From positions 186,001 to 250,000 of the forward strand of contig JADBJJ010000032.1 of the NCBI GenBank assembly GCA_014874475.1: a stretch of 64,000 bases of DNA, given 5' to 3'. The notes beneath the pieces are model-generated. The model did no database searches, was not told the DNA's origin, and saw nothing but the letters and a program-made list of their open reading frames with translations. The translations under genes were made by a program, and so were the position numbers. This DNA comes from Chloroflexota bacterium. GTDB taxonomy: Bacteria; Chloroflexota; Anaerolineae; B4-G1; DUEL01. This document shows positions 1 through 29,367 of the stretch, one piece after another (within the stretch, counting starts at the first letter, position 1; every line of letters begins with the position of its first letter).

Positions 1-489
1 CTTCCGGCTGTGCTGGACTATCTGCCGGCAGGGGAACCGCTGGCCCTCTACGGCCGGGGGCCGAACTGGCTCTATGCGGCCATCGCTGTCCACGCACTCC
101 CGGCCCCTTTCTACCTCTTTGATGCCCGTCTGGGGTGGACGGCGCCCCCGACCCTTCACATCGGGGCCCCTTCGGTCGGCCCTCTACAGGTGAAAGAACG
201 CCGGGAAAAGGAATCTCCAGTCACCTACATGGAGTTCTCCATCCCCGAGGGCTACCTGGATATCACCGAAGTGGAGGGGCTGGCCATTCCACCTCCCCCA
301 GCGGATGGATTGGTTCTCAGCGGCAAAATCCCCCTATGGCTCTGGACTGCTCTATCCCGCCTCTACGCGCCCCTGACCTCCTGGCTGGCGGTGGTCCAGC
401 CGCAACTGACGGCGCAAGGGGTCGGCTGGGCTGTCGTGGTCCACAGCCGGACCGCTTTCCCCATCGGCTCCTGCATCGGTATGGGATGA
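1..489 (+). CDS. Tandem Csx3-like protein (5' end outside window)
   Basis: The frame is open from the first base, so the N-terminus lies outside the window; about 162 residues are visible. Two Csx3-like halves can be seen. The first has GRGPNWLYAAIAVH followed by PFYLFDARLG. The second has VLSGKIPLWLW, then WLAVVQPQL and VVVHSRTAFPIG. This matches the Csx3 pattern (SGRGPxWL, then VAVYDPRLG, then VVxxSHS, G-D-V-I). Csx3/Crn3 proteins are ring nucleases that degrade cyclic tetra-adenylate in type III CRISPR immunity. The D-x-R-L-G motif is kept in half one but replaced by Q-P-Q-L in half two, while the VVVHS segment is present only in half two. No cas gene or array lies downstream, so the CRISPR link is inference. 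Family call from remembered family pattern, moderately sure. Confidence 0.6.
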   Translation, partial: LPAVLDYLPAGEPLALYGRGPNWLYAAIAVHALPAPFYLFDARLGWTAPPTLHIGAPSVGPLQVKERREKESPVTYMEFSIPEGYLDITEVEGLAIPPPPADGLVLSGKIPLWLWTALSRLYAPLTSWLAVVQPQLTAQGVGWAVVVHSRTAFPIGSCIGMG

Positions 490-16117: not shown

Positions 16118-16528
16118 CTACCGATAATGGGTCGCCAGATACTCCACCAGCACAGCCCGTTCCGCCTCTGTCAGTCGTGCTCCCCGCCGGATCATTCGGT
16201 CAACGGTCTGGTTCCACTCCTCCGCGGTTTTGCGGGCGCTTTCCACCCGCTCCAACCCATGACAGACCGCACACCGCTCTCGGAGCAGAGTCGCTCCGTC
16301 GGCCACCGGGCGGGCAGAGGGAGTAACTTCAGGAGACGGAGCGGCCGTCGGGAGAGTCGGTGTCTCCGTCCGACCGCCGCCGGCCTCCGGGCGGGCAGAG
16401 GGAGTAACTTCAGGAGACGGAGCGGCCGTCGGGGGAGTCGGCGTCTCCATCCGACCGCCGCATGCCGAAACCATGCTGACTACCACCAGGGCCAACACAA
16501 AGAACCAGAGATATCGTTTCCCAGCCAT
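16118..16528 (-). CDS. Lipoprotein c-type cytochrome with duplicated linker
   Basis: 136 residues. The signal peptide ends in the lipobox VSAC near residue 23. A linker made of two nearly identical 27-residue units follows (ETPTPPTAAPSPEVTPSARP and ETPTLPTAAPSPEVTPSARP). The C-terminal domain holds one heme c site, CAVCH, followed by WNQTVDRMIRRGARLTEAER, a small monoheme cytochrome pattern. Predicted outer-face electron carrier needing the Ccm or Ccs maturation system; ccmBCD lies 1.4 kb away. Starts 2 nt after the BY-kinase stop without its own Shine-Dalgarno, so translation is probably coupled. Confidence 0.8.
   Translation of the reverse strand: MAGKRYLWFFVLALVVVSMVSACGGRMETPTPPTAAPSPEVTPSARPEAGGGRTETPTLPTAAPSPEVTPSARPVADGATLLRERCAVCHGLERVESARKTAEEWNQTVDRMIRRGARLTEAERAVLVEYLATHYR
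16306..16461 (-). repeat. 81-bp tandem duplication inside cytochrome linker
   Basis: Two 75-nt matching blocks (16306-16380 and 16387-16461) with period 81 nt differ at about three positions, so the duplication is recent. Period is a multiple of three, keeping the frame (27 codons). Confidence 0.9.
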
Positions 16529-26281: not shown

Positions 26282-26396
26282 GCTTCCCCTCCACCGTTCA
26301 CTTCTCACATCTCACTTTCCACTTTCCACGTCTCACCTTGTCTCACCTTTCACTGTCCACGTTTCACGTTCTTCACCCTTCACGTGCTCCGTCTCC
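26272..26396. repeat. Degenerate heptamer repeat array [T/C]TCAC[G/T/C]T, copy 1
   Basis: A run of about fifteen TTCACGT-like heptamers (TTCACTT, CTCACAT, CTCACTT, TCCACTT, TCCACGT, CTCACCT, TTCACTG, TTCACGT ...). It separates mogA from moeA, and the last ~20 codons of mogA are read from it. Confidence 0.75.
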
Positions 26397-26954: not shown

Positions 26955-27034
26955 GTACAAATCATGCCTCACTTTTCACCCCTCCCATTTCACGTTTCCC
27001 CCTTTACGTCTCACGCTTCACCCTTCACCCTTGC
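26955..27034. repeat. Degenerate heptamer repeat array, copy 2
   Basis: TTCACCC, TTCACGT, TTTACGT, CTCACGC, TTCACCC, TTCACCC and relatives between mogA and the thr promoter. Same orientation as copy 1; the two arrays flank mogA. Confidence 0.7.
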
Positions 27035-27073
27035 GGCAGCAGAATCGCTATAGAAAAACATCTGGCGGGCCTC

Positions 27074-27101
27074 TTGACAATTTCCCGAGACAATGTACAA
27101 T
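27074..27101 (+). promoter_or_regulatory. Promoter of the threonine operon
   Basis: TTGACA (27074-27079), 16-nt spacer, TACAAT (27096-27101). The leader-peptide ATG follows 8 nt later, so the mRNA is predicted to be leaderless. Confidence 0.75.
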
Positions 27102-27109
27102 TTTCTCCG

Positions 27110-27208
27110 ATGGAGACGAACCTGCTGATCCGATTGTCGCAGATTTTTGGACTCGTCCATCGGACGATGATTACCACTACCACGACTGAGCCGCCGCCCG
27201 ACGGGTGA
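27110..27208 (+). CDS. thrL: Threonine-rich leader peptide of thr operon
   Basis: 32 codons ending in MITTTTTEPPPDG. Six of the eight codons from 19 to 26 are threonine (ACG, then ACC ACT ACC ACG ACT). No Shine-Dalgarno; the start is 8 nt after the -10 box. It lies 39 nt upstream of a terminator hairpin and just before threonine synthase and homoserine kinase. This is the classical layout of translation-coupled transcription attenuation: ribosome stalling on Thr codons when charged tRNA-Thr is scarce should prevent the terminator. The pausing and antiterminator pairings were not resolved by eye. Mechanism inferred by analogy with enterobacterial thrL. Confidence 0.78.
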   Translation: METNLLIRLSQIFGLVHRTMITTTTTEPPPDG

Positions 27209-27247
27209 GCGGACGGCAGGTCGTGTAAGCCGTACTGGGTATAGAAC

Positions 27248-27281
27248 AGGCCTCCGAGACCGCTCTCGGAGGCCTTTTTTT
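27248..27281 (+). terminator. Attenuator terminator before thrC
   Basis: Perfect 12-bp stem AGGCCTCCGAGA / TCTCGGAGGCCT with loop CCGC, followed by seven T. It is upstream of thrC, not after a gene, so it can only act as an attenuator. Confidence 0.92.
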
Positions 27282-27300
27282 ATCCGTTCAGGAGGAAGCC

Positions 27301-28359
27301 ATGTCCGAATATCAAGGAGTCCTTCACCGATATAGCGAGATGCTTCACCTGCCCCCCGGGACTCGTCCGATTACATTATTGGAAGGAAATACGCCCCTCA
27401 TCCCTGCCCCCCGTCTGGCCGAACAACTGGGAGGAGGATTTGAGTTATATATCAAATACGAAGGCCTGAACCCCACTGGCTCATTCAAAGATCGGGGAAT
27501 GACGGCCGCCATCAGCGCTGCGGTCGGGGAGGGAGCGCGGGTGGTCATCTGTGCCTCCACAGGCAACACCGCCGCCTCCGCTGCCGCCTACGCTGCTAGG
27601 GCCGGTCTGCGCGCCGTCGTCCTGATCCCTCAGGGTAAGGTCGCCGCTGGCAAATTGGCCGGCGCGATCGCCTACGGTGCCCAGGTCCTTCAGGTGGAGG
27701 GCTCCTTTGACGACGCCCTACAAATAGTCGTTGAAATATCCCAAAAGCACCCGATTTGTCTGGTGAACTCCCTGAACCCCTATCGGATTGAAGGGCAGAA
27801 AACGGCTGCTTTTGAAATCTGCGACCGGCTGGGCACGGCGCCCGAATGGCTCTGCCTGCCCGTGGGCAATGCAGGCAACATCACTGCCTACTGGGCCGGA
27901 TTTCGGCAGTACGATGCCCTGCGCGGCACCGGCCTCCCCCACCTGTTGGGTGTCCAGGCTGCAGGCGCCGCCCCTTTGGTCCTCGGCCACCCAGTGGAGC
28001 GGCCGGAGACGGTCGCAACGGCCATCCGCATTGGCCGACCCGCCCGGGGGGAACAGGCGCTCCAGGCTGCCGAGGAATCGGGGGGACGGATCATCGCGGT
28101 GACGGACGAAAAAATCCTGAGCATGCAACGCCTTCTGGCCGCCACTGAGGGTATCTGGGTGGAACCGGCTTCTGCGGCAGGTCTGGCAGGACTGGCTCAC
28201 GAAATAGCCACCGGACGGTTGAGAGTCCGAAGCCAGCGGGTGGTCGCCGTCTGCACCGGCCACGGCTTGAAAGACCCCGACATCGTCATCCAATGGGTCA
28301 GCAAGCCCCTGAGCATCCCGCCCCGCATAGACCTTCTGGAGGAGGTGCTGGCGCTATGA
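27301..28359 (+). CDS. thrC: Threonine synthase
   Basis: 352 residues. PLP-dependent conversion of O-phosphohomoserine to threonine. Seen: LLEGNTPLIPAPRL near 30, the PLP lysine in NPTGSFKDRGM near 60, ASTGNTAASAAAYAARAG near 85 and the cofactor phosphate loop PVGNAGNITAYWAGF near 190. Short single-domain bacterial type. GGAGGAAGCC precedes the ATG. Stop overlaps the thrB start as ATGA. Controlled by the attenuator just upstream. Confidence 0.97.
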   Translation: MSEYQGVLHRYSEMLHLPPGTRPITLLEGNTPLIPAPRLAEQLGGGFELYIKYEGLNPTGSFKDRGMTAAISAAVGEGARVVICASTGNTAASAAAYAARAGLRAVVLIPQGKVAAGKLAGAIAYGAQVLQVEGSFDDALQIVVEISQKHPICLVNSLNPYRIEGQKTAAFEICDRLGTAPEWLCLPVGNAGNITAYWAGFRQYDALRGTGLPHLLGVQAAGAAPLVLGHPVERPETVATAIRIGRPARGEQALQAAEESGGRIIAVTDEKILSMQRLLAATEGIWVEPASAAGLAGLAHEIATGRLRVRSQRVVAVCTGHGLKDPDIVIQWVSKPLSIPPRIDLLEEVLAL

Positions 28360-29321
28360 AAGTTGTCCACGTTCGTGTACCCGCCACTACTGCCAACTTA
28401 GGACCGGGCTTTGACGCTCTCGGTATGGCGCTGAGCCTGTGGAATGAGGCGAGTTTCATCCAGACTGGCGACTCTTCTATCGGCATTCAGGTACATGGGG
28501 AAGGTGAGCAGACCCTGCCCTCCGACGAACGGAATCTCGTCCTGGCCGCGGCTCTCCAACTGTATGCTCTGGTGGGGGCATCCCCAGCAGGGATTCGGGT
28601 TTATTGCTTCAACCGCATCCCTCTGGCTTCGGGCCTGGGCTCCAGTTCTGCCGCTATGCTCATCGGCCTGCTGGGAGCCAACCACCTGCTGGGTCAACCT
28701 CTATCGCCTGAAGAAGTGCTCATCCTGGCCGCTCAAAACGAGGGCCATCCGGATAACGTGGCTCCGGCCTTGATGGGCGGACTGGTCGCCGCCGTCCTCC
28801 AGGGAGAAAAGGTCATCGCGCGCCGATGGCCGGTCAAACCTATGGCAGTGACCATTGTTCTCCCCGATTTCCCTTTTCCTACCCGGGTCGCGCGGGCCGT
28901 TTTGCCCTCTTTGATCCATCTTCAGGATGCGATCCACAATTTAGGGCGCGTCCCTCTGGTGTTGTGGGCACTGGAGAAGGGAGACCTGAGCCTGCTGAGA
29001 GAGGTAATGGACGACCGGCTCCACCAGCCGTATCGGCTACCGTTGATCCCCGGAGCGCAGGCCGCGATGGAGGCCGCTCAGGAAGCAGGAGCGGCGGTCG
29101 CCCTTTCCGGCGCCGGCCCGGCTCTCATCGCCTTTTCCGCCCAACATCAGCCAGCCATCGGCGAGGCAATGCAACGCGCGTTCTGGCAGGCTGGTCTTTC
29201 ATCCCGTGTCTTCCACCTGCGGGTCAGCCATCAGGGTGCAGTGGTGCAGGTGAGAGATTATCCCCACGTGTCGGAGAAAACTCCGCCCTACCTGTTCCGC
29301 ACCTCTCGGCTAACCGAATAG
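28356..29321 (+). CDS. thrB: Homoserine kinase (GHMP family)
   Basis: 321 residues. ATP-dependent phosphorylation of homoserine. Seen: VRVPATTANLGPGFDALGMA at the N-terminus, the GHMP loop IPLASGLGSSSAAMLIGLLG near 95, VAPALMGGLVA near 140 and SGAGPALIAFS near 255. ATG overlaps the thrC stop (ATGA), so the two are translationally coupled. Supplies thrC with substrate. Confidence 0.97.
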   Translation: MKVVHVRVPATTANLGPGFDALGMALSLWNEASFIQTGDSSIGIQVHGEGEQTLPSDERNLVLAAALQLYALVGASPAGIRVYCFNRIPLASGLGSSSAAMLIGLLGANHLLGQPLSPEEVLILAAQNEGHPDNVAPALMGGLVAAVLQGEKVIARRWPVKPMAVTIVLPDFPFPTRVARAVLPSLIHLQDAIHNLGRVPLVLWALEKGDLSLLREVMDDRLHQPYRLPLIPGAQAAMEAAQEAGAAVALSGAGPALIAFSAQHQPAIGEAMQRAFWQAGLSSRVFHLRVSHQGAVVQVRDYPHVSEKTPPYLFRTSRLTE

Positions 29322-29338: not shown

Positions 29339-29367
29339 TTGGCGCAGTCGCCAAAACACGGTATAAT
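29339..29367 (+). promoter_or_regulatory. Promoter of mutase subunit-meaB operon
   Basis: TTGGCG (29339-29344), 17-nt spacer, TATAAT (29362-29367), about 70 nt before the start codon. Confidence 0.65.

Follow-up and report, generated by a model that had tools for sequence, protein, structure and literature searches.

The thrC-thrB operon in the window, a 64 kb stretch of the Chloroflexota genome G000 whose positions serve as coordinates throughout, is preceded by an element that we take, with a probability of roughly 0.88, to be a ribosome-mediated transcription attenuator sensing charged tRNA-Thr. The Thr-leader pattern upstream of thrC was confirmed to be real and not a product of chance. 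An earlier note, made from the sequence alone, had read the region as a Thr attenuator, and this reading was supported by the finding of an antiterminator and by a Thr run that is kept in relatives while the rest of the leader differs. If it is correct, ribosome-mediated attenuation of threonine biosynthesis reaches beyond the proteobacteria, a switch that senses a stalled ribosome can operate through an intrinsic terminator on an mRNA that is probably leaderless, and leader peptides may be under-annotated in Chloroflexota; the element would also be compact and sequence-defined enough to be tested in vitro or with a reporter.

Leader, terminator and operon

The promoter consists of TTGACA (27074-27079) and TACAAT (27096-27101) separated by a 16-nt spacer, and sites scoring at least 9/12 occurred twice in 4.5 kb, compared with 0.6 expected. 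It is followed by a leader ORF of 32 codons with Thr at codons 19 (27164-27166) and 22-26, the latter directly preceded by an Ile codon (21). Searching both strands for five consecutive ACN codons returned this run as the only match in 64 kb, against an expectation of 0.02. The leader RNA (27109-27285) gave a folding z-score of -5.66, with none of 200 shuffles equally stable. Two hallmarks of an attenuator are present in this arrangement, as an intrinsic terminator lies between the leader ORF and the first structural gene, thrC, and the amino acid of the codon run matches the end product of the thrC-thrB pathway. The terminator hairpin (27248-27275) forms 12 perfect pairs around a 4-nt loop, and the identities of thrC and thrB were assigned using curated NCBIfam cut-offs, which both proteins passed. 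The earlier note had described the promoter, a 32-codon leader starting 8 nt past the -10 box with no Shine-Dalgarno sequence, six Thr codons among leader codons 19-26 and a perfect 12-bp terminator with seven T, all of which are present in the sequence (the last stem base is counted among the seven); its thrC-thrB pair with ATGA overlap agrees with both the coordinates and the NCBIfam scores.

Table 1. Positions of the leader, RNA structures and genes of the thrC-thrB region in the window.
Feature	Position	Strand	Basis or remark
Sigma-70-type promoter, TTGACA-16-TACAAT	27074..27101	+	11/12 consensus; same site in whole-genome pattern scan
Leader peptide ORF, METNLLIRLSQIFGLVHRTMITTTTTEPPPDG then stop	27110..27208	+	ATG 8 nt after -10, no Shine-Dalgarno; probably leaderless
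Five consecutive Thr codons (22-26)	27173..27187	+	sole such run in 64 kb
Predicted protector hairpin (anti-antiterminator)	27181..27225	+	Thr codons 27181-27187 and GCCGCC pair with 27204-27225
Antiterminator, 5' arm	27207..27222	+	fold; duplex p 0.0085; overlaps leader stop TGA 27206-27208
Antiterminator, 3' arm (terminator 5' arm, loop and first 3'-arm bases)	27249..27265	+	14 pairs with 27207-27222
Intrinsic terminator, 12-bp stem, 4-nt loop, T run	27248..27281	+	sequence
Shine-Dalgarno of thrC, AGGAGG	27290..27295	+	sequence
thrC, threonine synthase	27301..28359	+	TIGR00260, 304.6 bits (cut-off 167.1)
thrB, homoserine kinase	28356..29321	+	TIGR00191, 231.1 bits (cut-off 168.25); ATGA overlap with thrC

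Several other features were observed around the operon. A second good promoter (TTGGCG-17-TATAAT, 29339-29367) precedes a gene for a methylmalonyl-CoA mutase C-terminal domain and meaB, which suggests that these two form an operon separate from thrCB, since they have a promoter of their own. Short CACCTTTCACGTTT-like stretches, which look like non-coding repeat tracts, are found around moaB at 26310-26383 and 26964-27035, the second of them just upstream of the thr promoter. Elsewhere in the window, a unit of 81 bp is repeated in tandem at 16296-16461, in two copies that are 94% identical.

Alternative RNA structures and modelled switching

The antiterminator, which the earlier note had been unable to resolve by eye, was found by folding the RNA minus the part under a stalled ribosome and ending it before the terminator 3' arm, which left one dominant hairpin. 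Its pairs fall into blocks of GAGCGG (27207-27212) with CCGCTC (27260-27265), CGG (27214-27216) with CCG (27254-27256) and AGGTC (27218-27222) with GGCCT (27249-27253). The first bases of the 5' arm lie within the leader stop codon (TGA), and as the 3' arm is made up of the terminator 5' arm and loop, antiterminator and terminator are mutually exclusive. When compared to dinucleotide shuffles, the duplex was significant in the window (p 0.0085), in two other Anaerolineae, G469 (locus L214, p 0.0065) and G399 (locus L093, p 0.011), and in a third, J097 (locus L036, p 0.0095). A protector hairpin arises when the final Thr codons (CACGACT, 27181-27187), together with the Pro codons after them, pair with 27204-27225, which ties up the antiterminator's own 5' arm (p 0.009 in the window). 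Protector-like pairing was also detected in G469 (p 0.012), and the corresponding pairing in G399 and J097 was not significant against shuffles. These parts, their mutual exclusivity and their conservation in G469 and G399 are established by sequence and computation.

Following this arrangement, we infer that transcription would start at about 27108 and that the leader would be translated from its first codon. With ample Thr-tRNA, the ribosome would reach the stop codon inside the antiterminator 5' arm and cover that arm, allowing the terminator to form and transcription to end before thrC. With scarce Thr-tRNA, it would stall on codons 22-26 and break the protector hairpin, one arm of which is provided by those codons, making 27207-27222 available to 27249-27265 while the latter is being transcribed; with the antiterminator formed, no terminator would follow and thrC-thrB would be transcribed. 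If the leader were not translated, the protector hairpin would form and transcription would terminate. The operon would thus be on only when threonine is scarce.

Switching was modelled by masking ~28 nt of RNA as the ribosome on a transcript ending at 27265. In the window, the antiterminator had a probability of 0 both when the ribosome was absent and when its A site was at the stop codon. The probability reached ~0.5-0.95 with the A site at several of Thr codons 23-26 and an assumed leading edge of 12-16 nt, was near 0 at Thr22, dipped at some combinations of codon and edge, and was ~0.5 at the last Thr codon; the window values depend on the assumed ribosome footprint. For G469 and G399, the probability was ~0.99 with a stall 5-6 codons before the stop. 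In these computations, the antiterminator is therefore both exclusive with the terminator and freed by a ribosome stalled on Thr codons, as in an attenuator. For full-length RNA at equilibrium the terminator always won in the window, G469 and G399, and the choice must therefore be kinetic and made during transcription, which is also how known attenuators make theirs.

Distribution and origin in Anaerolineae

The element is present as one copy in the window genome (3.0 Mb), and the other thrC paralogs of that genome (L002-L005) have no Thr leader upstream. Within the order (48 genomes), a close thrC ortholog is found only in the window genome and its congeners G010 and G012, whose related thrC genes lack the element upstream; within the class, 108/396 genomes carry a thrC ortholog. 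We read ~180 thrC upstream regions of relatives, some duplicated between collections, most of which hold no such element. At least four consecutive Thr codons followed by a good terminator were found only in the window, G399 and G469, the latter two belonging to another family (f29). One further candidate (L013), with an ETT tail and a terminator, was rejected as an attenuator as it has only two Thr codons. At L007, in congener G010, a TatD-like gene ending PPTTTTPRSS before its stop lies ~210 nt upstream of thrC, and its tail is followed by a weak GACCCC..GGGGTC hairpin with a weak T tract.

The G399 leader (MSIQPPANDQRTTTTTPCLPT then stop, ending in QRTTTTTPCLPT) and the G469 leader (ending in NIITTNTTTTPPPA) have diverged from that of the window yet keep the Thr run. 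All three loci share the motif TGAGYGGACRGnnGGTC at the stop codon, have its complement across the 5' arm and loop of the terminator, and are followed directly by thrC. In the three-member alignment, 95% of pairs were standard, with G-U variants at three pairs and no double changes; the pair changes were one-sided only, to or from G-U. This pattern supports conservation more than covariation, for which the evidence is thin because there are only three clear members, the same three from which the covariance model (R1) was trained. Searching with R1 in 396 genomes of the class, 152 of family f29 and 400 of the phylum gave credible scores for these training members only, and the best weak matches (E 0.005-0.09), which had no Thr leader and no adjoining thr gene, were rejected as chance. 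The earlier note had proposed comparing Thr codons in related Anaerolineae and had named absence of the run as evidence against its reading; the run is absent from the nearest genomes (G010 and G012) but kept in the distant G469 and G399. The element is genuine and well constructed, at least three lineages conserve it, and its occurrence within Anaerolineae is rare and patchy.

Among 4227 Rfam families, the best match in this stretch of the window was Thr_leader (RF00506), which aligned over its full length at 23.7 bits (E 0.02) and thus below its gathering cut-off of 55 bits. The same family scored 12.9 in L214 and gave no match in L093. The window element is not a member of Thr_leader, and shares with that family a Thr-codon run in a predicted leader ORF upstream of thr biosynthetic genes.

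The J097 locus has an architecture like that of the window in other letters. Here, a stop-codon segment (AGCCGCCAG) pairs with CUGGCGGCU in the terminator, and the candidate leader is a complete 80-aa gene (L036 2533-2775) that starts 7 nt after TATAAT and ends DITTTPPPA before the stop, with three Thr codons. In 229 kb of tested loci, J097 received the best R1 score after the window itself, but with an E value of 0.24. The 80-aa gene, for which no Pfam match was obtained, was observed just upstream of thrC at several loci of Anaerolineales (L036, L013, L020, L025, L096, L097, L231), and its homologs in other Anaerolineales normally end YDKDAPPLKG or similar. The tail of the J097 gene may serve as an attenuator leader.

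The ThrC tree groups G469 with G399 as sisters (89/81) and places the window and J097 at other positions. A clade of the window ThrC with G010, G012 and G055 is compatible with the data (AU p 0.35), and because this clade is not rejected, the congeners G010 and G012 may have lost the element. Its history could have been either a single origin with losses or one of transfers. The earlier suggestion of an independent or very ancient Thr attenuation was not demonstrated: the Thr_leader score below cut-off and the patchy distribution within Anaerolineae favor an origin, or a transfer, within the class, with convergence and very deep homology both conceivable. A more far-reaching version would make the Thr attenuators of Anaerolineae an RNA family of independent origin, its leader peptides being derived from the ends of genes that lie upstream. 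The apparently leaderless 80-aa gene of J097, whose stop-codon segment pairs perfectly with the terminator loop before thrC, would be the example, and the window and G469 leaders (ending in MITTTTTEPPPDG and IITTNTTTTPPPA, respectively) would have descended from a tail of this kind by shortening, a scenario that we consider decidedly doubtful.

Known attenuators, rival readings and the proposed leaderless start

The thrL attenuator of gamma-proteobacterial thrABC (RF00506) resembles the window element in its Thr run with Ile, short leader, control of thr biosynthesis and logic of protector, antiterminator and terminator, and the Rfam alignment spans the entire window element and keeps its Thr codons in register. 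In contrast to thrL, the operon here is thrC-thrB without thrA, the mRNA is likely leaderless, and the stop codon already contains the beginning of the antiterminator arm. Leaderless leader peptides have been described in Streptomyces lividans (leuL, trpL, ilvL and thrL-thrS; PMC8079986), as have leaderless mycobacterial attenuators for cysteine (Canestrari et al. 2020, as cited in PMC7790235). Like these actinobacterial leaders, the one in the window is a short ORF at the predicted mRNA 5' end that is rich in the regulated amino acid, but it is found in another phylum and before another gene; in S. lividans, the Thr leader contains two Thr codons, precedes thrS and has no clear terminator, whereas the window element has an obvious terminator and an antiterminator. 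The classical attenuators that have been predicted for trp and leuS in Corynebacterium and Streptomyces (PMC1262725) likewise comprise a leader peptide, an antiterminator and a terminator with GC-rich stem and poly-U, and differ from the window element in amino acid, phylum and sequence. According to a survey from 2010, evidence for leader peptide systems had previously been confined to Proteobacteria and Actinobacteria, to which the survey added Firmicutes (PMC2965389). No report of a leader-peptide or Thr attenuator in Chloroflexota was found in the openly accessible literature searched, and an earlier prediction in subscription papers is possible. A Thr switch before thr genes, known from proteobacteria, is therefore apparently new for Chloroflexota; the interest lies in the phylum, a probable independent origin and a probable leaderless start, and not in a new principle.

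An ordinary terminator of a short upstream transcript, combined with a chance Thr-rich ORF and an unregulated thrC, would be in keeping with the many thrC upstream regions without the element, including those of congeners G010 and G012. However, Thr run, antiterminator pairing and terminator recur together directly before thrC in G469 and G399, where the leader peptide differs, the run is 50-fold above chance expectation, and the pairing beats shuffles, making this coincidence very unlikely. Even less probable, in our estimate, is attenuation by a T-box, riboswitch or RNA-binding protein with the ORF being incidental: outside the proteobacteria, terminator-based control by T-boxes and riboswitches is common, but no Rfam family, the T-box leader included, reached its cut-off in the window, a scan of 18 loci from relatives and paralogs gave no Rfam match near thrC, and the feature that is conserved is an in-frame Thr run with its stop inside the antiterminator arm. 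A third reading accepts the attenuator and differs only in initiation, with translation proceeding from an upstream transcript or from another codon; it is compatible with our preferred explanation and is unlikely rather than far-fetched. In its favor, the leader frame stays open as far upstream as 26924, and the leaders of G469 and G399 start with an ATG 21-22 nt past TATAAT, behind a weak SD-like stretch (TAAGG/TAAGAG). Against this, the near-consensus promoter ends 8 nt before the window ATG, no Shine-Dalgarno sequence precedes ATG1, TTG9 or ATG20 of the leader, and clear protein genes of the same genome also start 8-10 nt after a consensus -10 box.

These genes (loci L119, L126, L129, L132, L136 and L312) are, judging from their N-termini, presumably lepA, DeoR-type and Rrf2-type regulators and genes for PHP, FhaA-like and mtnA-like proteins, and they provide evidence for leaderless or near-leaderless mRNAs in G000. 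Scanning the whole genome for TTGACA-15..18-TANNNT-4..9-ATG yielded 24 sites, but an overall enrichment of leaderless spacing is weakened by the 18 sites obtained in a control scan with the ATG 10-15 nt after the -10 box; of the site counts, such spacing is supported only by the fact that long ORFs are scarce at 4-6 nt compared to 8-12 nt after the -10 box. In a published analysis, leaderless genes were present in 4/12 Chloroflexi genomes, at a mean of 4.7% of genes (PMC3160421). The leaderless mRNA proposed in the earlier note is therefore plausible for the window, where the spacing, the missing Shine-Dalgarno sequence and similarly spaced genes agree with it, and probably does not extend to G469 and G399; as their leader ATG is found 21-22 nt after TATAAT, leaderlessness is no part of the conserved design.
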